Shown: in pieces, positions 608 through 30,775 of the stretch
Position numbering within the stretch: position 1 is the first letter of the stretch
How the letters are laid out: every line of letters starts with the position of its first letter
From: a virus
DNA length: 30,868 nt
IMG/VR virus record: IMGVR_UViG_3300036900_000176
Location: 1-30,868 of that record
Direction: 5' to 3' (one strand)
Made by a program: the position numbers and the translations under genes
The notes under the pieces: generated by a model
What the model was told of the DNA's origin: nothing
Databases searched by the model: none
Seen by the model: the letters and a program-made list of their open reading frames with translations, nothing else

Positions 608-2365
608 ATGCCAGGGCGCCGCCGCACCGCGCCGGCGAGCGCTCCCGCCCCGCCGCCGCCCTCCCCCCCGCCCGCGCTCGATCCGGTCGCCGACTTCGCG
701 CACGCCGTCGGCGCCGGGCGCATCGTCGCCGGCCCGAGCGTGCGCGCCGCCTGCCGCCGGCACCTGGCCGACCTCGAGCACGCGGCCGAGCGGGGCTGGC
801 ATTTCGACCAGGCGCGCGCCGCCCGGGCGCTGCGATTCTTTCCGAAGATCCTGCGCCTGAACGGCGGCCGCTTCGAGGGGCAACCGTTCGAGCTCGCCGG
901 CTGGCAGGCCTTCGGCGTCGGCTCGCTTTTCGGCTGGGTCGGCGCGGACGGCCGCCGGCGCTTTCGGCGTGCCTACTTCGAGACGGGCAAGGGCTCGGGC
1001 AAATCGCCCCTCGCCGCGGGAATCGGCCTGCTGATGCTCGTCGCCGACGGTGAATCACGCGCCGAGGTCTACGCCGCCGCCTCGAAAAAGGAGCAGGCGC
1101 AGGTCCTCTTTCGCGACGCCGTCGCCATGATCGAGCAGTCGCCGCCGCTGCGCGAACGGCTGCGCATCATCGGCGGATCGAACCCCTGGAACATCGTCGT
1201 CGGCGGCTCATTCTTCCGCCCGATCGCCTCGGACGAAAAGCAGAGCGGGCCGCGCCCGCATTGCGTGCTCATCGACGAACTGCACGAGCACCATGACGAC
1301 ACCGTCATTGAGCTCCTCGTGGCGGGCTTCAAGAGTCGCGAGCAGCCGCTGCTCGTCGCGATCACGAACGCCGGCGTCGATCGCACCTCGGTGTGCTGGC
1401 AGTACCACCAGCACGCGATCAACGTGGCCGCGGGCGTGCTCGAGGACGATCGATTTTTCTCCTTCGTCTGCGACCTGGACGCGGGCGAGGACCCGCTCGA
1501 GGACGAGGCCTGCTGGATCAAGACCAATCCGAGCCTCGGCGTGACGATCGGCCTGGACTACCTGCGCGACCAGGTGCACGCGGCGCGGCAAATGCCCGCC
1601 AAGGAATCGAAGGTCCGACGGCTGCACTTCTGCCAGTGGGTCGACGCCGCCTCCCCCTGGATTTCGGGCGAGGCCTGGCGCGCGTGCGAGCGCGAGGCCG
1701 TGCCGGACGCGCTGGCCGACTTCGCCGATCGCGACGTCATCCTCTCGGCCGACCTGTCGACCACGACCGACCTGTCGGCGCTCGCGATCGTGGCCGAGGA
1801 CGAGGCTGGATGGATCGACGCGGCCGTCGAGTTCTGGACCCCCGGCGACACGCTCGCCGCGCGTGCCGAGCGCGACGTCGTCCCCTACGAACTGTGGCGC
1901 GACCAGGGCTGGCTGCACGCGCTGCCCGGCTCGACGATCGATTACGCCTCGATCGCGCGGCGCGTCGACACCATGATTCGCGCCGGCCTGCGCGTGCGCT
2001 CCTTCGTGTTCGACCGCTACCGCATGCCCTTTCTGCGCCGCGAGTTCGAGGCGCTCGGCCTGGCGCTGCCGCTGCTCGAGCACCCGCAGGGCTTCGTCAA
2101 AGTCAAGTCGACGGCGCTCTGGATGCCGCAATCGATCAACGAGCTAGAAACGGCCGTGCTCGAAGGCACGCTGCGGGTTGCCCGAAACCCCGTGCTCACC
2201 TGGAACAGCGCGAGCGCCGTCGTCGTGAAAGACGAGCAGGAGTCGCGCGTCTTTTCAAAGCGCCGTTCGACCGGGCGCATTGACGGCGTCGTCGCGCTCG
2301 CCATGGCCGTGGGCGCGCTCAAGGCGCCGGCCGAGATGCTCGACGTCGAGACCTGGATTGCATAA
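608..2365 (+). CDS. terL: Terminase large subunit (HK97-like Terminase_1 family)
   Basis: DNA-packaging ATPase and headful or cos nuclease, acting at the portal vertex. The sequence shows a Walker A P-loop GKGSGKS at residues 127-133, a Walker B LIDELHEH at 221-228 with catalytic Glu224, and a nuclease-domain acidic set beginning LSADLSTTTD (Asp382, Asp388) and ending RIDGVVALA (Asp559). At 585 residues it has normal family length; residues 1-30 are a Pro/Ala-rich extension. The start has only a weak Shine-Dalgarno but lies six bases after the upstream stop, consistent with coupling. Unusually, five small genes separate it from the small subunit. Immediately after its stop lies one of three TAAAGCTTTAAATA sites. 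Confidence 0.96.
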   Translation: MPGRRRTAPASAPAPPPPSPPPALDPVADFAHAVGAGRIVAGPSVRAACRRHLADLEHAAERGWHFDQARAARALRFFPKILRLNGGRFEGQPFELAGWQAFGVGSLFGWVGADGRRRFRRAYFETGKGSGKSPLAAGIGLLMLVADGESRAEVYAAASKKEQAQVLFRDAVAMIEQSPPLRERLRIIGGSNPWNIVVGGSFFRPIASDEKQSGPRPHCVLIDELHEHHDDTVIELLVAGFKSREQPLLVAITNAGVDRTSVCWQYHQHAINVAAGVLEDDRFFSFVCDLDAGEDPLEDEACWIKTNPSLGVTIGLDYLRDQVHAARQMPAKESKVRRLHFCQWVDAASPWISGEAWRACEREAVPDALADFADRDVILSADLSTTTDLSALAIVAEDEAGWIDAAVEFWTPGDTLAARAERDVVPYELWRDQGWLHALPGSTIDYASIARRVDTMIRAGLRVRSFVFDRYRMPFLRREFEALGLALPLLEHPQGFVKVKSTALWMPQSINELETAVLEGTLRVARNPVLTWNSASAVVVKDEQESRVFSKRRSTGRIDGVVALAMAVGALKAPAEMLDVETWIA

Positions 2366-17027: not shown

Positions 17028-18869
17028 ATGACCGACACTCTCGCGCGCATGCGCCAGATCCTGGGCACGACCGCCGAATGGGCGGCCAACGACTTGACGC
17101 TCGGCGACGGCGAACTCGCCGCGGAGCACCTGGCGGACGGCACCTTCTCGCTGCGCCTGGGCGACGGCTCGAGCCGGTTCTCGCAACTGCCGCCGCTGGG
17201 CGCGGTGGCCTCCACCGTCATCATCGGCGACGGGGTGACCGACCGCACGGCGGCGATCTACGCCGCCAACCAGGCCGGCAAGCCGATCACGATCTCAGGC
17301 ATTGCCCACGTGGCGGGCCCGATCACCATCACGGTGCCCATCACCGACACGCGCGCGCAGATCTTCACCTACGCCTCGGATGTGCGCATCGACAACGGCC
17401 AGGCCGTGCGCCCCGAGTGGTTCGGCCCCGTCAACGGCCGCGCCGGGCTCGTGCGGCGCGCGGTCGACGCGCAGGTCAAGGGCGTCATAGCGCTGTCGGT
17501 GGCGATCTACCTGTCCGGGTACGACACGGCTACTGCCGCCATGTTCCAGAACCGCGGCGGCACGCCGGGGCTCGACTACATGGTCAAGCCCAACATCAAG
17601 ATTCAGGGTGCGCAGCTGCCGCGCTACGCCGACGACAACTCCGCCCTCATCAATGGCTCGGTGATCCAGGGCACGCTCTACGTGTCCTCCGAGTGTCACG
17701 GATTCGGCCTGGATGAGGTCGGCATCGACGCGGGCTCGGCCGTCTGCGCCTCGCTGTACGGCGGCGCCGATCACGACGGGTGCTGCTTCCTGCAGTGCAA
17801 CAAGCTCACCCCCATCTACGGCCACGGGATCACGATCGGTCGCGTACGGGGTCTCTGCTCGGGCGACTCGAGCCAGGCGCATGCCTGCCTATTCGAGGCG
17901 ATCGACGGCGGCTCGATCGGCAATGCCGAGGGTCGCTACGCGCTGCACGGCGTCGCGATCAAGTCCATGCACCTGGTCTGTGGCACGCTCTCGGGGAGCT
18001 TGAACCATGGTGAAGACATCATCTTCAAGTCCGACGACTACGCCAACCTGGCGAGCGTCGAGGTCGACAAGTGCTTTTGCCAGGGGCGCACGGCCGGCGA
18101 TGCGGGCTACGGGGTCTACATCCTGGCCTCGGCTGCGAGCGGGGGCACGGTGTCGATCGGGCAAATCGTGGCCGAGCGCAAGGCGATCGGCCTGGGCATG
18201 TCGGCCAATGCATCGCTCGCGCTGGCGGACCTGAACGTCGGCGAGCTCATCACGCAATCCTGCCCGACCGGCTGGTCGCTGGGCGGCGCCGGGCTGGCGC
18301 GCATCCATGTCGGGCGCGCCCTCATCAACGCGACGACGAACGGGGTCTTGGTCGACGTCAGCGTGACGGCGCGCACCGTGGGCGTTGGATCGTTGTCCGT
18401 CAACAGCGCCACCCGCGGCATCGACGCCTCGGGGAAATTGCGCGTGGGCACGCTGTACGTGGACAACGCCTCGGCCTTCGCGCTGTACCACCGCTCGGCC
18501 GCCGCACGGGTCTTCCTCGACGGCGGGGCACAGATCGACCGCTCGGTGTTCTGGGCGGCCGATCCGGCCCTCATCAACAGTTGGGTCAACTTGGCCGGCG
18601 GCTCGGCGCCTTTCTCGCTCACGCTCAACGCGGGTCGCGTCGTGATGGGCGGGCGTATCAAGGCGGGCACCGCGGCGACAATCTGCAACGTGGCGACACT
18701 GCTCGCGCCTGCTGCGGCGTTGAGCTTCCCCTGCGTGGCGTACAACGGCTCGGTCTACGCGATCGTCGAGGTGGCAATCTCGGCCGCGGGCGCAGTCACC
18801 GTCTCCAGCTTCGCGGCCGCCTCGAGCTATCTGTCACTCGAGGGCATTTCCTGGCCGATTCCGTTCTGA
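17028..18869 (+). CDS. Tailspike / tail fibre with right-handed beta-helix
   Basis: Adhesin or depolymerase at the tail tip. Residues about 1-55 (EWAANDLTLGDGELAAEH, RLGDGSSRFSQLP) match the small trimeric N-terminal domain seen on many phage fibres. IIGDGVTDRTAAIYAANQAG at 65-84 and VRPEWFGPVNG at 127-137 are the usual entry motifs of pectate-lyase-like tailspikes. The rest is repetitive short strands consistent with a beta-helix to about 520, then a beta-sandwich-like C-terminus. Many Cys residues (for example CASLYGGADHDGCCFLQCN) are unusual for a virion fibre and could stabilise the helix or bind metal. The substrate is unknown. An out-of-frame coding remnant follows its stop. Confidence 0.85.
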   Translation: MTDTLARMRQILGTTAEWAANDLTLGDGELAAEHLADGTFSLRLGDGSSRFSQLPPLGAVASTVIIGDGVTDRTAAIYAANQAGKPITISGIAHVAGPITITVPITDTRAQIFTYASDVRIDNGQAVRPEWFGPVNGRAGLVRRAVDAQVKGVIALSVAIYLSGYDTATAAMFQNRGGTPGLDYMVKPNIKIQGAQLPRYADDNSALINGSVIQGTLYVSSECHGFGLDEVGIDAGSAVCASLYGGADHDGCCFLQCNKLTPIYGHGITIGRVRGLCSGDSSQAHACLFEAIDGGSIGNAEGRYALHGVAIKSMHLVCGTLSGSLNHGEDIIFKSDDYANLASVEVDKCFCQGRTAGDAGYGVYILASAASGGTVSIGQIVAERKAIGLGMSANASLALADLNVGELITQSCPTGWSLGGAGLARIHVGRALINATTNGVLVDVSVTARTVGVGSLSVNSATRGIDASGKLRVGTLYVDNASAFALYHRSAAARVFLDGGAQIDRSVFWAADPALINSWVNLAGGSAPFSLTLNAGRVVMGGRIKAGTAATICNVATLLAPAAALSFPCVAYNGSVYAIVEVAISAAGAVTVSSFAAASSYLSLEGISWPIPF

Positions 18870-19610: not shown

Positions 19611-20111
19611 GTGGGAAAGACTCTGTTTCGCGGCCAGCGGCGCCTGATCGATCAGGCGACCGGCGAGATCATCGAGACGCAGGTTGTCGAGCGCAGCGTC
19701 GCCGGCGGCGATGTGGGCTTCCATAAAATTTGGCTCGGGCACATCCTCGAGCTCGTCGAGGAGTGCGGGAACGCAAAGATGCAGGTTCTGGTTTGGCTGC
19801 TGCGCCAGGCCGACGCGCAAAATCAGATTGCCGCCTCGACGCGTCAGATTGCCGACGGATCGGGCGTCGGCATTGCGACGGCCAATCGATTGATGCGGGC
19901 GCTGCAGCGCGTCAACGTGATCACCCGCAATGGACGATATGGGCTCTGGCGACTCAATCCCGATGTGATCTTCCGCGGCGACTATCAGAAACGCATGAAC
20001 GTCCTCATCCGCTACCGCGACGAATCGCAGGCCTCGCTGCCATTCGACGGGGTCGAGGAATCGGCCCCGTCGCCGACAGAGAACGTGACGCCGATCCGGC
20101 GCGCCGCGTGA
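19611..20111 (+). CDS. repL: Plasmid replication initiator, RepL family
   Basis: Replication protein of the RepL type (winged-helix plasmid initiator), 166 residues. The N-terminus has the family pattern RLIDQATGEIIETQVVER. A helix-turn-helix lies at about 60-105 (STRQIADGSGVGIATANRLMRALQRVNVITR), followed by the conserved LNPDVIFRGDYQKRMNVLIRY at about 115-137. The start is GTG with AGGGG six bases upstream. It is a lone plus-strand gene between the origin-like region and a bidirectional terminator. With ParA/RHH nearby and no integrase it argues that the prophage is a plasmid. The tandem TGATCA sites upstream are likely its origin or operator. Confidence 0.85.
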   Translation: MGKTLFRGQRRLIDQATGEIIETQVVERSVAGGDVGFHKIWLGHILELVEECGNAKMQVLVWLLRQADAQNQIAASTRQIADGSGVGIATANRLMRALQRVNVITRNGRYGLWRLNPDVIFRGDYQKRMNVLIRYRDESQASLPFDGVEESAPSPTENVTPIRRAA

Positions 20112-20665: not shown

Positions 20666-20905
20666 TTAAAGCTTTAAATATTGCTTGATTGCAAGGTCGA
20701 TCAGATCCGACTCCGTCACCCGGGCGCCCGCGGCGACGCTGCGCTCGAGCGCGGCCCGCTTCAGCGCCTGATCGAGGGATCGATCCATGCGAATGGTTTT
20801 TGTGATCCGCTCGGGCGCCGCCGGCGTCGCCTCGGCGACGGCCGCCTGGCCGCCGCGCAGGAATTGGTCGGCCGCCGCGGCGCTGAGATCCGGCTTGCCT
20901 TTCAT
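20666..20905 (-). CDS. Ribbon-helix-helix protein, probable centromere-binding partner of ParA
   Basis: A 79-residue DNA-binding protein. Residues about 34-79 show a ribbon-helix-helix: strand RITKTIRM, helix A SLDQALKRAALERSV, and helix B TESDLIDLAIKQYLKL. The N-terminal 30 residues are flexible and Ala-rich, as in ParG/omega-type partner proteins that stimulate ParA ATPase. The ATG overlaps the parA stop (ATGA), the normal arrangement of a type Ib par operon. Its probable targets are the three TAAAGCTTTAAATA sites. It could instead be a plain repressor; adjacency to ParA makes partition more likely. Confidence 0.8.
   Translation of the reverse strand: MKGKPDLSAAAADQFLRGGQAAVAEATPAAPERITKTIRMDRSLDQALKRAALERSVAAGARVTESDLIDLAIKQYLKL
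20667..20680. promoter_or_regulatory. Operator/centromere-like site 2 (TAAAGCTTTAAATA)
   Basis: Second copy of the shared 14-mer, here embedded in the perfect 14-bp palindrome TTTAAAGCTTTAAA (20665-20678). It overlaps the stop of the RHH gene and sits in the ribosome-binding position of the next gene. Confidence 0.6.
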
Positions 20906-21600
20906 CGCGTCACCTCCGCAAAAACCGATTCGAGCTCGTGAATGGCGACGGCGTCGCGCCGCACCCCGTCGAGCTCGTCGACCGTCAGGCCGTCGCCGAT
21001 CGCGCGCCGGTATGCCACGCGCTCGCAGATCCGGGCGTCGAGCACCTCGAGCCGCTGCTCGGCCAGATAGGCGAGCATCTCGCCCGCGTCGCGCGTGCGG
21101 GGATCCACCCGGGCGAGCAGCACGCGCAGCTGAAGCTCGGGATTGATCTCGCGCGCCACGCTGGCGATCTCGAGCAGGTCCGTTAACGCGGCCGCATCGA
21201 ACGTCGACGCCCCGACCGGCACGATCGCGCGCTCGGCGAGCAGCAGCGCGCCGCGCAGGCTGGCCGAATCGCGCCCGCCCGCGTCGACGACGGTGTGCAC
21301 GAAGCTGCGCGCCAGACGCCCGCCCTCGTCGAACACGGCCCGCCCCGCGAGGCAGACCGTCGTCGGGCTTTCGTTGGCCGCCGAGCCGGCTTGGATCCCC
21401 TCGCGTCGCCAGGCCGCCCAACTCGCGGCCGAGGCCTGGGGATCCCCGTCGATCAGCAAAACCGCGGGCCGGCTCGGCACGCGCGGCCCGTCGCCGAGCG
21501 CGTCCAGCACCGGCGAGCGCCGGCACAGCATCGTCGCCAGGTGCACGGCCAGCGTCGTCTTTCCGACGCCCCCCTTCGTGTTCACTACCGCTATGCGCAT
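20902..21600 (-). CDS. parA: ParA-family partition ATPase
   Basis: Walker-type ATPase that segregates low-copy plasmids. The 232-residue sequence has a deviant Walker A KGGVGKTT at residues 9-16 (signature Lys9), Walker A' LLIDGDPQAS with Asp51-Asp53, and Walker B VVDAGG with Asp106. It has no N-terminal DNA-binding extension, so it is a small type Ib (ParF-like) ParA that depends on a separate small partner, here the RHH protein. AAAGGTGG precedes the ATG. An operator-like palindrome lies about 25 bases upstream, consistent with autoregulation. It supports episomal prophage maintenance. Confidence 0.93.
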   Translation of the reverse strand: MRIAVVNTKGGVGKTTLAVHLATMLCRRSPVLDALGDGPRVPSRPAVLLIDGDPQASAASWAAWRREGIQAGSAANESPTTVCLAGRAVFDEGGRLARSFVHTVVDAGGRDSASLRGALLLAERAIVPVGASTFDAAALTDLLEIASVAREINPELQLRVLLARVDPRTRDAGEMLAYLAEQRLEVLDARICERVAYRRAIGDGLTVDELDGVRRDAVAIHELESVFAEVTR

Positions 21601-22276: not shown

Positions 22277-23338
22277 TCAATCGCTTTGCCAGTGCTCGGC
22301 GAGCAGCGCGACCTCGTCGGTTTTCTGAATCCACGTGCCGGGCTGCGCGCCTTTGTAGTTCAGGCCGTATTCGTTCGGGTCGCTCGTGTTTTGCTTCCAC
22401 TGCCACCAGGCGTAGCCGACGCGCGCCTCGTCCATTTTCTCGAGCGCGCGGCGCATGTGGGCGAGATCCCGGTCGGCCTCCGTCTTGCGGCCCATTTGCT
22501 GCACGAAAATCGGCGCGCCCCGCTCGTCGCGCATGCGCACGAGATGCGCCAGGCCGGGGTCGAATTTCTCCGGGCTCGTGACGTAGCCCGAGAGCAGATT
22601 GCCCGTGTAGACGACGTCGGTTCTCTCCTCGAGAAAGGCCTCGTCGCAATACTCGATGTGGTAGCCGTTGCGCGCGCCAATCAAGACAGGCGTATCGGCG
22701 TCGACCTCGCGCACGCCCGCGATCACCTCGCGATAGAAGTCGCGCACCTGGGCCGCATACTCCGGGCCGCGGCCGTCCGCGGGCTCGGGCTGCAGTTCGA
22801 GCAGGGCGATTTTCGACAACGTGCGAAGCTTCGCCGCGGCTGCCGGCCAGACCACCTGGGCGAACACGCGCCGCATGGACGGATCGGTGAAAAAGTTATG
22901 CCCCTGCGCGCCCCACGAGCCGTAGGGATCGCAATAGCGAACCATGTCGGGATTCTGCGTGCCGGACTGGCCGCAGTTCGAATCGATGAACGGCACCGCC
23001 CACAGACCCGCCGAGGTCACGCTCGCGATCATGTCGAGCCAGTGCGCCACGTTCGAGCGGCTCAGAAAGGCGAACGCGTTGTTGTCGCGCGATTCCACGC
23101 CCGCGGGGCCGTACAGACCCCACCAGCGCAGGCAGACGCGCACGCAGTTCGCCCCCATCGCTTTCACCTGGTTGACGTCGATCGGATCGTCTTCCCCCCA
23201 GGATCCGAAGGAGGGCCCGCGCAGCAGGATCGGCCGCCCGTTGGGCTTGATCAGCTGGCCGCCGGCGCAGCGCAGGCGCGGCGGAAGCTCGTCGGCCGCC
23301 GGGGTGGCGGCGCCGCTCGGCGCCTCGGTCGAGATCAT
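22277..23338 (-). CDS. GH5-like TIM-barrel protein with altered nucleophile position
   Basis: 353 residues resembling glycoside hydrolase family 5/cellulase-like barrels. The opening strand is PNGRPILLRGPSFGSW (32-47), then GANCVRVCLRW (62-72), HIEY (227-230) and a late aromatic strand GYAWWQW (308-314). The acid/base Glu region is LLELQPEPAD (Glu185), where the usual Asn-Glu-Pro is Pro-Glu-Pro. The strand that should carry the nucleophile Glu reads IFVQQMG, putting Gln281 there. No signal peptide. GGAAGGA precedes the ATG. It may be a binding protein or pseudoenzyme, or use another residue. It lies with membrane and lipoprotein genes where lysis genes would be expected; a lysis role is unproven. 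Confidence 0.75.
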   Translation of the reverse strand: MISTEAPSGAATPAADELPPRLRCAGGQLIKPNGRPILLRGPSFGSWGEDDPIDVNQVKAMGANCVRVCLRWWGLYGPAGVESRDNNAFAFLSRSNVAHWLDMIASVTSAGLWAVPFIDSNCGQSGTQNPDMVRYCDPYGSWGAQGHNFFTDPSMRRVFAQVVWPAAAAKLRTLSKIALLELQPEPADGRGPEYAAQVRDFYREVIAGVREVDADTPVLIGARNGYHIEYCDEAFLEERTDVVYTGNLLSGYVTSPEKFDPGLAHLVRMRDERGAPIFVQQMGRKTEADRDLAHMRRALEKMDEARVGYAWWQWKQNTSDPNEYGLNYKGAQPGTWIQKTDEVALLAEHWQSD

Positions 23339-27368: not shown

Positions 27369-28313
27369 GTGGCCGTCCAGATCCTCACCGGCGACTGTCG
27401 CGCGCTGCTGGCAACCCTGCCCGCGGGCTCGGCGCAATGCTGCGTGACGTCGCCGCCTTACTTTGGGTTGCGCGACTACGGCCACGCCGAGCAGATCGGC
27501 CTGGAGTCCTCGCCCGAGGCCTACATCGCCGCGCTCGTCCAGACGTTCCGGGCCGTGCACCAGGTGCTCGCCGACGATGGGACGCTCTGGCTCAACCTCG
27601 GCGACACCTATGCTGGCGATCGCGGCGCCGCCGGTTCTAACAATCGAGGCCTGACCGATTCGCGCCGCCGCGATAACACGCCAGTCCCCCGAAGCGATGC
27701 AAGAATCGACGGCCTGAAGGCCAAGGATCTTGTTGGCATCCCCTGGCGCGTCGCTTTCGCGCTGCAGGCCGACGGCTGGTGGCTGCGCCAAGACCTGATC
27801 TGGTCGAAACCGAACCCCATGCCCGAGAGCGTGATCGATCGGTGCACCAAAGCGCATGAGTACGTTTTCCTGCTATCGAAGGCAGCGCGCTATCTGTTCG
27901 ACGCGGAGGCGATCGGCGAGGCCGCAAGCGGACGCAAGTCCGGCCGCATCGCCGAGGACAAGGCAGGCACCGATGCCGGGTTTGAGATTCGCGGCGGGTT
28001 CGCTGCGTGCGGTCAGACGGAATGGTTTTCCCGCAACCGCCGATCCGTCTGGACGATCGCGACGCAACCCTTCGACGGCGCGCACTTCGCAACGATGCCG
28101 CCCGAGCTCGCGCGCCTGTGCATCCTCGCCGGCTCGCGCCCGGGCGACACCGTGCTCGACCCCTTCGCGGGCGCCGGAACGACCGGCCTCGTCGCCGATC
28201 GGCTGCAGCGCGGGGCCGTGCTGATCGAGTTGAATCCCACCTATGCCGAGCTCGCCCGAGCCCGCTTGCAGGGTGACGCCCCTCTGTTTGCTGACGTCTG
28301 CCTGCATGGGTGA
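27369..28313 (+). CDS. Orphan DNA methyltransferase, beta-class (TSPPY motif)
   Basis: Site-specific methyltransferase of 314 residues. Motif IV TSPPYFGLRDYG is at 27-38 and precedes motif I DPFAGAGTTG at 264-273, which is the beta-class order. The Ser-Pro-Pro-Tyr form of motif IV is more typical of N4-cytosine enzymes, although some of this group methylate adenine. A central target-recognition region (about 100-230) separates them. The start is GTG, four bases after the preceding stop. No restriction endonuclease lies near, so it probably protects phage DNA from host restriction or alters regulation. Its stop lies inside a 20-bp direct repeat. Confidence 0.9.
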   Translation: MAVQILTGDCRALLATLPAGSAQCCVTSPPYFGLRDYGHAEQIGLESSPEAYIAALVQTFRAVHQVLADDGTLWLNLGDTYAGDRGAAGSNNRGLTDSRRRDNTPVPRSDARIDGLKAKDLVGIPWRVAFALQADGWWLRQDLIWSKPNPMPESVIDRCTKAHEYVFLLSKAARYLFDAEAIGEAASGRKSGRIAEDKAGTDAGFEIRGGFAACGQTEWFSRNRRSVWTIATQPFDGAHFATMPPELARLCILAGSRPGDTVLDPFAGAGTTGLVADRLQRGAVLIELNPTYAELARARLQGDAPLFADVCLHG

Positions 28314-28321
28314 CAGGATCA
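28302..28321. repeat. 20-bp direct repeat, left copy, flanking XF1762-like gene
   Basis: CTGCATGGGTGACAGGATCA here is repeated exactly at 28818-28837, 516 bases away. The repeat contains the methyltransferase stop (TGA). Sequence after each copy stays partly similar (CAAA). Confidence 0.85.
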
Positions 28322-28326
28322 AGCAA

Positions 28327-28815
28327 ATGCTCAGACTCGTTCCAATTTCATTCGAGGAGGCGAATTGCTTCGTCGAGCAGTACCACCGGCACCGAGGCGC
28401 GGTCGCCGGCGCGAAATTCTGCATTGCTGTAGCACAACGCTTTGAGATTGGCGGGCCGCAGCCCGGCTCGGCAGGCTACGGAATGCATGCGGATTCGATC
28501 GTCGGCGTGGCGATCGTTGGACGGCCGATTGCGCGCAGCCTGGACGACGGATTGACGCTCGAGGTCAATCGATGCTGCACAGACGGCACATCTAACGCGT
28601 GCTCGATGCTGTACGCGGCCGCGTGGCGTGCAGCCCGGGCATTAGGCTATGCGCGTCTCGTGACGTACACACTCAAGAGTGAGACTGGCGCATCGCTGCG
28701 GGCTGCTGGCTTTCGCGTTGTCGGCTCGGGGCAGGGCCGCAGTTGGTCCTGCCCCTCTCGGCCACGGGTTGATACGCAACCGCATCAGGCCAAACTGCGA
28801 TGGGAACCGGCATGA
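28327..28815 (+). CDS. XF1762-like / GNAT-fold phage protein
   Basis: Phage accessory protein of 162 residues resembling the XF1762-type family, with acetyltransferase-like pattern: MLRLVPISFEEANCFVEQYHRHR, then VGVAIVGRPIARSLDDGLTLEV, CTDGTSNACSMLYAAAWRAARALGYARLVTYTL and GASLRAAGF. The family's role is not established. Compared with the usual family form an extra segment lies at about residues 43-60. The ATG at 28327 gives the family-like N-terminus; an ATG at 28306 lies in the repeat. The gene is bracketed by exact 20-bp direct repeats and is less GC-rich than its neighbours, so it looks like an inserted cassette. Confidence 0.75.
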   Translation: MLRLVPISFEEANCFVEQYHRHRGAVAGAKFCIAVAQRFEIGGPQPGSAGYGMHADSIVGVAIVGRPIARSLDDGLTLEVNRCCTDGTSNACSMLYAAAWRAARALGYARLVTYTLKSETGASLRAAGFRVVGSGQGRSWSCPSRPRVDTQPHQAKLRWEPA

Positions 28816-29309: not shown

Positions 29310-29354
29310 CCCCGATCTAAGTAGATTCTAATTAGATTCTCTGGAGTATCTAAT
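29310..29354. promoter_or_regulatory. AT-rich repeat cluster before small terminase (candidate cos/pac or promoter)
   Basis: A short AT-rich island between HNH and terS contains two direct AGATTCT repeats, the palindrome TCTAATTAGA (29326-29335), and flanking ATCTAA copies. GGAG for terS is within it. In HNH-terS-terL phages the terminase recognition site is commonly near here, so this is the best candidate in the window. Confidence 0.45.
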
Positions 29355-29834
29355 ATGGCAGGCAGAATCCCGAAACCCACCGTCTTGCGCCTGGTCGAAT
29401 CGGGCGGAAAGATGCGCACCCGGTTCAAGGAGCGTGCGAAGCAGGAGCCGCGACCTCGAGCGGCGATCGGCGAGCCTCCCCCCTGGTTCACCCTCGACCA
29501 GCTGGAGGTCTGGTTTCGTCTCGTCGAGGCCGCGCCCGAGGGATTATTGACGGGCTGCGACCGCGAGATATTCGAGGGCTTCGTCGTATTGGCTTGCGCG
29601 CGCACGAAACTGATACAGCAATATAACGCGAGTTCGCGCGATGTTATTGCACAATCGCCCGACGACCTGAATCGGTGGATTCTCGTCGCCTCCCTGCGGG
29701 AATACAAGCGTCTTACCGAATCGCTGCGCGTGCTCGCGCATGAGCTCGGGTTCACGCCGGCGGCGCGAACGCGCGTGCTCGTCGCGCCATCCGAGGCGCC
29801 GGTCGATCCGCTCGACGAGTTCATAGGGAGATAG
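29355..29834 (+). CDS. terS: Terminase small subunit (P27 family)
   Basis: Recognises phage DNA and recruits large terminase. The 159-residue sequence fits the P27 family: N-terminal PKPTVLRLVESGGKMRTRFKERAKQEPRPR, then GEPPPWFTLDQLEVWFRLVEAAPEGLLTGCDREIFEGFVVLACARTKL, and a C-terminal helix LTESLRVLAHELGFTPAARTRV. GGAG lies eight bases before the ATG. Its 3' half is somewhat AT-richer than the phage average. The next gene follows after five bases. Large terminase is not next but five genes further on across the circle junction. Confidence 0.9.
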   Translation: MAGRIPKPTVLRLVESGGKMRTRFKERAKQEPRPRAAIGEPPPWFTLDQLEVWFRLVEAAPEGLLTGCDREIFEGFVVLACARTKLIQQYNASSRDVIAQSPDDLNRWILVASLREYKRLTESLRVLAHELGFTPAARTRVLVAPSEAPVDPLDEFIGR

Positions 29835-29839
29835 CAGCC

Positions 29840-30280
29840 GTGGCCCTTTCCTCAGATGTGCCGCGAGCCGATAAGGACGGGCATACGTTTACCGTAAATT
29901 CATCGGTGGATGAATTGTTCTCTTGTCGCCTTTCTAATTCATTAAAGGCGGAAAAGATCTATTCCGTCCGTGATTTGATTCGGTACTCCGAAGGAGAATT
30001 GCTGGAACTTTGTAATATTGGACGCTTATCGGTTAAAGAAATAAAAGAGGCTTTGAAATTTCATGGAATGACTCTAAGGGGGAGCGGAGCACCGCTGCCC
30101 GAGATGCCGCCGTGTGATTCAGATTGGGAATGTTCAATTCCGAACGTTACTTATGAAAACCTTACCCTATTAATAAGTGAAGGAGGGGTAACCATTTGCT
30201 TGACTCTGATGTTGAGTGATGTGTCAGAACTTGTTTCGAAATTACAGTGCGCAATTGCAACTGGGCTGCGCCAGAAGTGA
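29840..30280 (+). CDS. Stand-alone RNA polymerase alpha C-terminal-domain-like protein
   Basis: 146 residues. Residues 22-81 (VDELFSCRLSNSLKAEKI to ALKFHGMTLRG) align along their length with the bacterial RNA polymerase alpha CTD. By E. coli numbering, Arg30, Asn33, Gly61, Ser64 and Glu67 match DNA-contacting R265, N268, G296, S299 and E302; Ser34 and Leu63 replace C269 and K298. No alpha NTD is present. Residues 95-146 are an unrecognised beta-rich tail. The start is GTG with GGGAG nine bases before. The gene is strikingly AT-rich (45 of 120 bases G+C at 29941-30060), so recently acquired. Likely a phage transcription modulator at UP-element-like sites; inferred. Confidence 0.85.
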   Translation: MALSSDVPRADKDGHTFTVNSSVDELFSCRLSNSLKAEKIYSVRDLIRYSEGELLELCNIGRLSVKEIKEALKFHGMTLRGSGAPLPEMPPCDSDWECSIPNVTYENLTLLISEGGVTICLTLMLSDVSELVSKLQCAIATGLRQK

Positions 30281-30516
30281 CCGTCGACACGATCGAATGC
30301 GAGACCCCGAGCGCGGACAAGGTTCGCGCGCTGCGCCTGCGCGCGTTCCTGACGCAGCGCCAGGCCGCCGAGCTCGTCGGCCTGGGCGCCGCGGCGCGCT
30401 GGAACGACTACGAAGCCGGGCGCCACGCGCTCGATCCGATTCGCTGGCTCGTGTTCCTGCTGCTGACCGACCAGCACCCCACGCACCAACTGACCCCGAG
30501 GAGCACGCATGCCTAA
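30277..30516 (+). CDS. Small XRE-like helix-turn-helix protein, 79 aa
   Basis: Residues about 14-58 (KVRALRLRAFLTQRQAAELVGLGAAARWNDYEAGRHALDPIRW) form a Cro/CI-type helix-turn-helix followed by the hydrophobic WLVFLLLTDQHP. The start is GTG overlapping the alpha-CTD stop as GTGA. It is back to the GC-rich phage composition. As the only Cro/CI-like protein in the genome it may be a late regulator; it lacks the C-terminal peptidase domain of SOS-cleavable repressors. Confidence 0.78.
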   Translation: MTVDTIECETPSADKVRALRLRAFLTQRQAAELVGLGAAARWNDYEAGRHALDPIRWLVFLLLTDQHPTHQLTPRSTHA

Positions 30517-30775
30517 ATCCCCGATCCGAATCGCGATTCGCGACGAGGGCGAATGGATCAACGCCTACGTGGCGCAGCGCGAAACGATGGCCGAGGCGAT
30601 CCTCGTCGCCACGCTGCGAAAATCCCTGGCCGAAATGCCGGGGGGCTTCGACGCGTTCAAGGCCCATGTTGCGGCGCTGGGTCGAATCCTCGTCGAGGGC
30701 GCGCTCGGGCCGGGCTCATTCCTGGGAACGACGATCGAGACCGCACCGGAGCACGAGCGCAGCGGCCATGGCTGA
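30509..30775 (+). CDS. Hypothetical protein, 88 aa
   Basis: Function not recognised. It has a short N-terminal strand region PIRIAIRDEGEWINAYVAQ, then helices MAEAILVATLRKSLAEM and FDAFKAHVAALGRIL. GAGGAG lies five bases before the ATG, which overlaps the end of the preceding gene. Its stop overlaps the ATG (30768) of the 113-residue gene that continues at position 27 after circular closure. Confidence 0.72.
   Translation: MPKSPIRIAIRDEGEWINAYVAQRETMAEAILVATLRKSLAEMPGGFDAFKAHVAALGRILVEGALGPGSFLGTTIETAPEHERSGHG

Follow-up and report, generated by a model that had tools for sequence, protein, structure and literature searches.

A Free-Standing RNA Polymerase Alpha-CTD Encoded beside the Terminase Genes of a Tailed Phage

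RNA polymerase uses the C-terminal domain of its alpha subunit (alpha-CTD) to read promoter DNA in the upstream region and as a docking site for activators. Seven residues of this domain (R265, N268, C269, G296, K298, S299, and E302) contact UP-element DNA. R265 is crucial for UP-element contact and is ADP-ribosylated by Alt and ModA of phage T4 (PMC2988021), and in Bacillus the purified alpha-CTD alone binds UP-element DNA (PMC9655642). Rac of phage LUZ19 causes a cleavage that detaches alpha-CTD, the loss of which is lethal for Pseudomonas aeruginosa (PMC7552054). Several viral proteins found among structure matches in BFVD already bear the name of the domain (“RNA polymerase, alpha subunit, C-terminal”: A0A6J5QDR9 and others from uncultured Caudovirales, A0A2P1JY10 from Rhodococcus phage Finch, and A0A5Q2WLP1 from Mycobacterium phage Mithril). 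Our literature search, which covered open-access sources and is weak evidence of absence, found no functional study or paper on a phage-encoded alpha-CTD. As far as the open literature shows, the phage-encoded free alpha-CTD is a kind known by annotation, for which we found no study. Here, we describe one such protein, encoded between the two terminase genes of a tailed phage.

The window (the whole stretch analyzed, 30,868 nucleotides of IMG/VR record IMGVR_UViG_3300036900_000176) had an exact 127-bp repeat common to both ends, an indication that the genome of 30,741 bases is circular or circularly permuted. PHROGs recognized a terminase large subunit (terL), a capsid/protease fusion, a portal, a tape measure, and a central tail fiber J, identifying a tailed phage. 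Genes for a RepL-like replication protein (19611-20111, + strand; 8.2e-31) and a ParA/CbiA-type ATPase (20902-21600, − strand; 5.1e-15) suggest that the phage may persist as a plasmid. A cellulase-family (GH5) gene, possibly accessory or lysis related, lay on the opposite strand (22277-23338, −; 1.6e-9), and an N6/N4 DNA methylase gene was followed by a Mom-like DNA modification gene (27369-28815; phrog_1384, 6.2e-38), probably for antirestriction. The alpha-CTD locus comprised the following features.

29316..29337, no strand: two tandem near-palindromes, TCTAANTAGAT, with 11-bp spacing, just upstream of terS (repeat and palindrome search)
29355..29834, + strand: terminase small subunit (terS), P27-type (phrog_83, 5.4e-14; Terminase_4, 1.1e-4, slightly below the Pfam cut-off)
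29840..30280, + strand: free-standing RNA polymerase alpha-CTD protein, 146 aa, GTG start, with the alpha-CTD core at residues 19-80 (Pfam, PDB sequence, structure model)
30101..30277, + strand: C-terminal extension of that protein, residues 88-146, predicted at low confidence as a beta-hairpin plus helix
30277..30516, + strand: helix-turn-helix (HTH) regulator (HTH_31, 8.3e-7)
30509..30775, + strand: 88-aa open reading frame (ORF), next in the operon after the HTH gene, with no Pfam or PHROG match
608..2365, + strand: terL, downstream across the contig junction (phrog_9, 2.4e-141)

Only 5 bp separated the terS stop codon from the alpha-CTD ORF, and GGGAG, 9 nt 5' of the GTG start (29840), is a plausible Shine-Dalgarno sequence. 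As read from the sequence, the GTG of the HTH gene at 30277 overlapped the alpha-CTD stop by 4 bp (GTGA), and the two genes are probably translationally coupled; the program-made ORF list started the HTH gene at 30247, in frame with 30277, the start that yields the usual coupled layout. Measured on the 30,741-bp circle, the distance from the alpha-CTD stop to the terL start was ~1.07 kb. Upstream, TCTAANTAGAT had four matches at up to one mismatch (both strands) against 0.08 expected, and the tandem pair is a candidate operator for the whole operon. A further inverted copy reached near the terS start codon. Related phages showed no such motif ahead of terS; one relative (L018) had a different palindromic array, composed of ATGCGGACCATCCGCAT variants, in the equivalent place ~140 bases upstream of its terS (5601).

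An earlier note on this DNA, made from its letters, had read the ORF as an alpha-CTD lacking the polymerase-binding N-terminal domain (NTD) and ending in an unrecognized C-terminal part, and the searches agreed on each point. The profile search it had proposed gave a match to Pfam RNA_pol_A_CTD (PF03118; E = 1.6e-12, 47.4 bits against a cut-off of 23.8) that aligned protein residues 19-73 with profile positions 11-66 of 67. All PDB sequence matches at E < 0.1 were RNA polymerase alpha chains, and most NCBIfam matches covered the C-terminal end of RpoA models and scored far under their cut-offs, with one further match to PRK07758 (a 95-aa hypothetical protein). No alpha-NTD was matched in the 146-aa ORF by Pfam or NCBIfam, and scores were far under the rpoA equivalog cut-offs. 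Residues ~88-146 had no meaningful match in Pfam, PHROG, PDB sequences, or phage genomes, the two top PDB matches being designed proteins; the full-length model placed a helix at 121-145, and the extension modeled alone reached a pLDDT of 51. Together with the predicted structure described below, these results make it almost certain that ORF 29840-30280 encodes a genuine alpha-CTD.

Contact residues were read from an alignment of the protein to an enterobacterial alpha. Five of the seven UP-element contacts were retained, in line with the earlier count (R265 = R30, N268 = N33, G296 = G61, S299 = S64, and E302 = E67), and two were substituted (C269 by S34 and K298 by L63). E261, a sigma-contact determinant, was missing, and the main activator-contact positions 287 and 317 (CAP contacts) were not kept. 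The domain has probably retained DNA binding.

Free alpha-CTDs proved to be recurrent among phages. IMG/VR was scanned twice, which yielded 16 and 58 loci (12 in common), or 62 distinct records with free alpha-CTDs, and beyond these, one related phage (G009) also encoded one. Together with the proteins annotated in BFVD, these records do not bear out the view that a phage-encoded alpha-CTD is singular. The ORFs that were read spanned 81 to 317 aa, none resembling an RpoA with an NTD, and each of the 17 proteins in the first set (those of the window and G009 counted in) matched the Pfam alpha-CTD at E < 0.01. No match was to a PHROG family with alpha-CTD in its name, and a diverse alignment (A2) yielded no conserved stretch usable as a search pattern. 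Several candidates were rejected: in the “phages” collection, every match that was inspected or carries an rpoA annotation was a full-length host RpoA, probably on a bacterial contig filed as phage; the plasmid matches inspected were full-length rpoA; and two unannotated records (L038 and L039) held full rpoA. One 16.5-kb Yoonia plasmid (NZ_CP150953.1) encoded a full-length RpoA with an extra C-terminal tail (L029:3275-4444) that is absent from the PLSDB gene table.

The set of 56 distinct free alpha-CTDs from phages averaged 46% identity to the enterobacterial reference over the domain, and positions 287 and 317 drifted. G296 was conserved in 98%, S299 in 93%, E302 in 91%, K298 in 80%, and N268 in 73%, with the search patterns covering positions 294-304, so that conservation there is partly built in. 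R265 was present in 55 of the 56 (98%), the remaining copy having a gap; the search patterns of the 58-locus scan do not include it, and its near-invariance is therefore the cleaner result, of which a retained DNA contact is the natural reading. Some copies were fused to other domains. Sigma70 region 4 was joined to alpha-CTD in L044:2476-3183 (Pfam, 1.1e-8 and 2.4e-20, respectively) and in a 191-aa ORF of L092 (~2001-2180; 8.4e-12 and 1e-18), and an XRE-type HTH was joined to alpha-CTD in a 166-aa ORF of L114 (~2001-2186; HTH_3, 7.8e-12; alpha-CTD, 9.5e-14). The alpha-CTD protein of L081 had a weak Mor-like HTH. Such fusions in other phages speak for a functional link between the alpha-CTD and a domain that targets DNA. 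In the L044 and L092 proteins, it is as though the parts of polymerase that read the −35 and UP elements had been united in one chain. Another record (G022, locus L053) held two separate alpha-CTD ORFs (17209-17433, +, and 19644-19823, −). Positions 330-387 of phrog_1660 (“PmgS-like head morphogenesis”) weakly matched residues 169-226 of the L044 protein, in its alpha-CTD (9.5e-4), and this family may carry an unnoticed alpha-CTD-like domain.

The reading we prefer, with about an even chance of being correct, is that the window protein is a phage-directed DNA-binding accessory factor or modulator of transcription that works with the coupled HTH protein. It would bind AT-rich (UP-like) DNA through the R265/N268/G296/S299 face, and the C-terminal extension or the coupled HTH protein would position it at particular phage promoters, perhaps at the TCTAANTAGAT array before terS. 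There it would work in trans, making contact with an activator or with sigma region 4 in the manner of an alpha-CTD carried by polymerase, and transcription of the packaging operon would be adjusted. In-trans DNA binding is feasible, since the purified domain binds UP-element DNA (PMC9655642), and the fusions to an XRE-type HTH (L114) or sigma70 region 4 (L044 and L092) make a separate, coupled alpha-CTD/HTH pair a plausible split form. Against the accessory-factor reading, C269S and K298L lie in the DNA face, where K298 is 80% conserved in the phage set, E261 is missing, and within its lineage this phage is the sole carrier of the gene.

The main rival is a decoy for host takeover, in which UP elements and host activators would be contested between the free alpha-CTD and those carried by polymerase, so that the free domain, as a dominant negative, would lower strong host promoters (rRNA and CRP dependent), in parallel to phages that disable alpha-CTD. 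The modification of R265 by T4 Alt/ModA (PMC2988021) and the Rac-provoked cleavage in an organism that does not survive loss of the domain (PMC7552054) offer precedents, and the DNA face is kept in the window protein. However, the gene adjoins the terminase genes and does not lie in an obvious early takeover block, positions 287 and 317 and E261 are not kept, and the fusion of several phage homologues to DNA-targeting domains suits site-directed action more than a soluble decoy. We consider the decoy unlikely, though it is the alternative that survives best.

The next alternative, also unlikely and placed slightly behind the decoy, is a passenger gene, transferred recently from an AT-richer source and either binding DNA in a generic way or serving no selected function in this phage. 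The alpha-CTD gene had a GC content of 0.452, against 0.698 ± 0.037 for 20 other genes, and a GC3 of 0.438, against 0.868 ± 0.067, which upholds the sharp difference in base composition reported earlier and fits acquisition from such a source. It was the lowest-GC 438-bp stretch of the contig, the island being as long as the gene; the earlier term “AT-rich island” is apt in a relative sense, but the gene is still 45% GC. The closest RpoA domains among the matches listed were 51 to 52% identical and came from Pseudomonadota genomes, and a betaproteobacterial (Comamonas) domain was 50% identical. Matches were found in 193 of 200 Pseudomonadota genomes, and among those listed the open frame was always at least 243 aa, as expected for RpoA. 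In a family tree of short alpha-CTDs, the window protein sat on a long branch with no supported neighbor, and its origin was not resolved. The full-length protein used as a query found no relative in genome contigs and just one distant record in viral contigs.

Relatives of the phage were sought with terL as the query, which found 25 viral records; the terS protein as a query gave no match in viral contigs. In most records showing both genes, terS abutted or overlapped terL (e.g., L003, L004, L006, L008, L014, L018, and L027, some of these being near-duplicates). Other junctions held inserts, namely, a 169-aa ORF in L005, a C5 methylase gene with further ORFs in L009, ~2 kb in L010, and ~5.5 kb in L011, and homologues of the window HTH protein adjoined terL in L011, L012, and L013. 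No alpha-CTD was present at the terS-terL junction of any related record tested. The alpha-CTD gene is cargo in a variable site, adjoining a recurrent HTH tenant; because terS usually abuts terL and the junction sometimes takes cargo, it looks like an acquired accessory gene. In G009, whose terL was 52% identical, a different free alpha-CTD (L033:1342-1710, 122 aa) immediately preceded the recombination genes YqaJ and RecT. The proposed link to packaging is one of position only: the gene lies beside terS, the junction varies among relatives, and none of those tested has an alpha-CTD there. With no alpha-CTD at this site in any relative tested and no full-length homologue, a recent acquisition without phage-specific function is possible, and the GC3 of 0.44 against 0.87 and the long branch lean the same way. 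The passenger reading sits less easily with a frame that is intact over 146 codons and keeps R265 and the fold, with a plausible Shine-Dalgarno sequence and probable translational coupling to the next gene, and with the recurrence of similar free alpha-CTDs across many phages.

The structure was predicted with AlphaFold2 on an alignment of 16 phage proteins. Pointed to beforehand as the outcome that would count against the assignment, a generic helix-hairpin-helix (HhH) fold was not what the prediction gave; the fold was that of alpha-CTD, with a pLDDT of 94 to 97 (~96) over residues 21-80. The predicted core superposed on E. coli alpha-CTD (8y5t) at 0.8 Å root mean square deviation over 62 residues (Foldseek), and a VIA structure match of the model to E. 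coli alpha-CTD had a Z score of 12.2. That the protein is an HhH protein outside RNA polymerase (e.g., a recombination or repair HhH domain) merely resembling alpha-CTD is highly improbable: Rad51/Dmc1 N-terminal domains have the same fold but rank lower in the structural list, sequence matches were limited to RNA polymerase alpha, the best solved structures were alpha-CTDs (0.8 to 1.2 Å, 38 to 42% identity), and the alpha-specific R265, N268, G296, S299, and E302 were retained.

The accessory-factor reading can be extended beyond this phage. Tentatively, and at somewhat under an even chance, detached alpha-CTDs, whether single or joined to an HTH or sigma region 4, would form a recurrent class of phage transcription factors acting in trans as add-on alpha-CTDs, of which the split form in the window, an alpha-CTD cotranslated with an HTH partner, would control the packaging operon. 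That many phages have their own detached alpha-CTD, with R265 near-invariant and sometimes with a fused domain, points to a general means by which promoter contacts could be added or blocked in trans and probably serves phages in directing the transcription of their hosts; for this, the window protein and those of L044, L092, and L114 are named candidates.

Compared with the C-terminal domain of RpoA (PF03118), the window protein had the same fold, an alignment spanning the whole domain, and five of seven UP-contact residues, but it had no alpha-NTD or linker, carried C269S and K298L, lacked E261, and added a C-terminal extension of ~59 residues. The BFVD proteins named for the domain also had the alpha-CTD fold, came from tailed phages, and measured ~100 to 240 aa; their identity to the window protein was low (best, 24 to 36%). 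The IMG/VR copies (L044-L058 and L072-L126) were likewise detached alpha-CTDs with R265, G296, S299, and E302 conserved and, unlike that of the window, occurred often, though not always, in AT-richer phages; four (L047, L048, L051, and L055) had a common helical C-terminal extension, and several were fused to an HTH or sigma region 4. LUZ19 Rac likewise yields a free alpha-CTD in the infected cell, but it resembles an acetyltransferase, acts by provoking the cleavage of host alpha, and is not itself an alpha-CTD (PMC7552054). T4 Alt and ModA, too, represent a phage strategy aimed at R265 of alpha-CTD (PMC2988021); they modify the host domain and supply none, in contrast to the phage described here, which encodes an alpha-CTD of its own.
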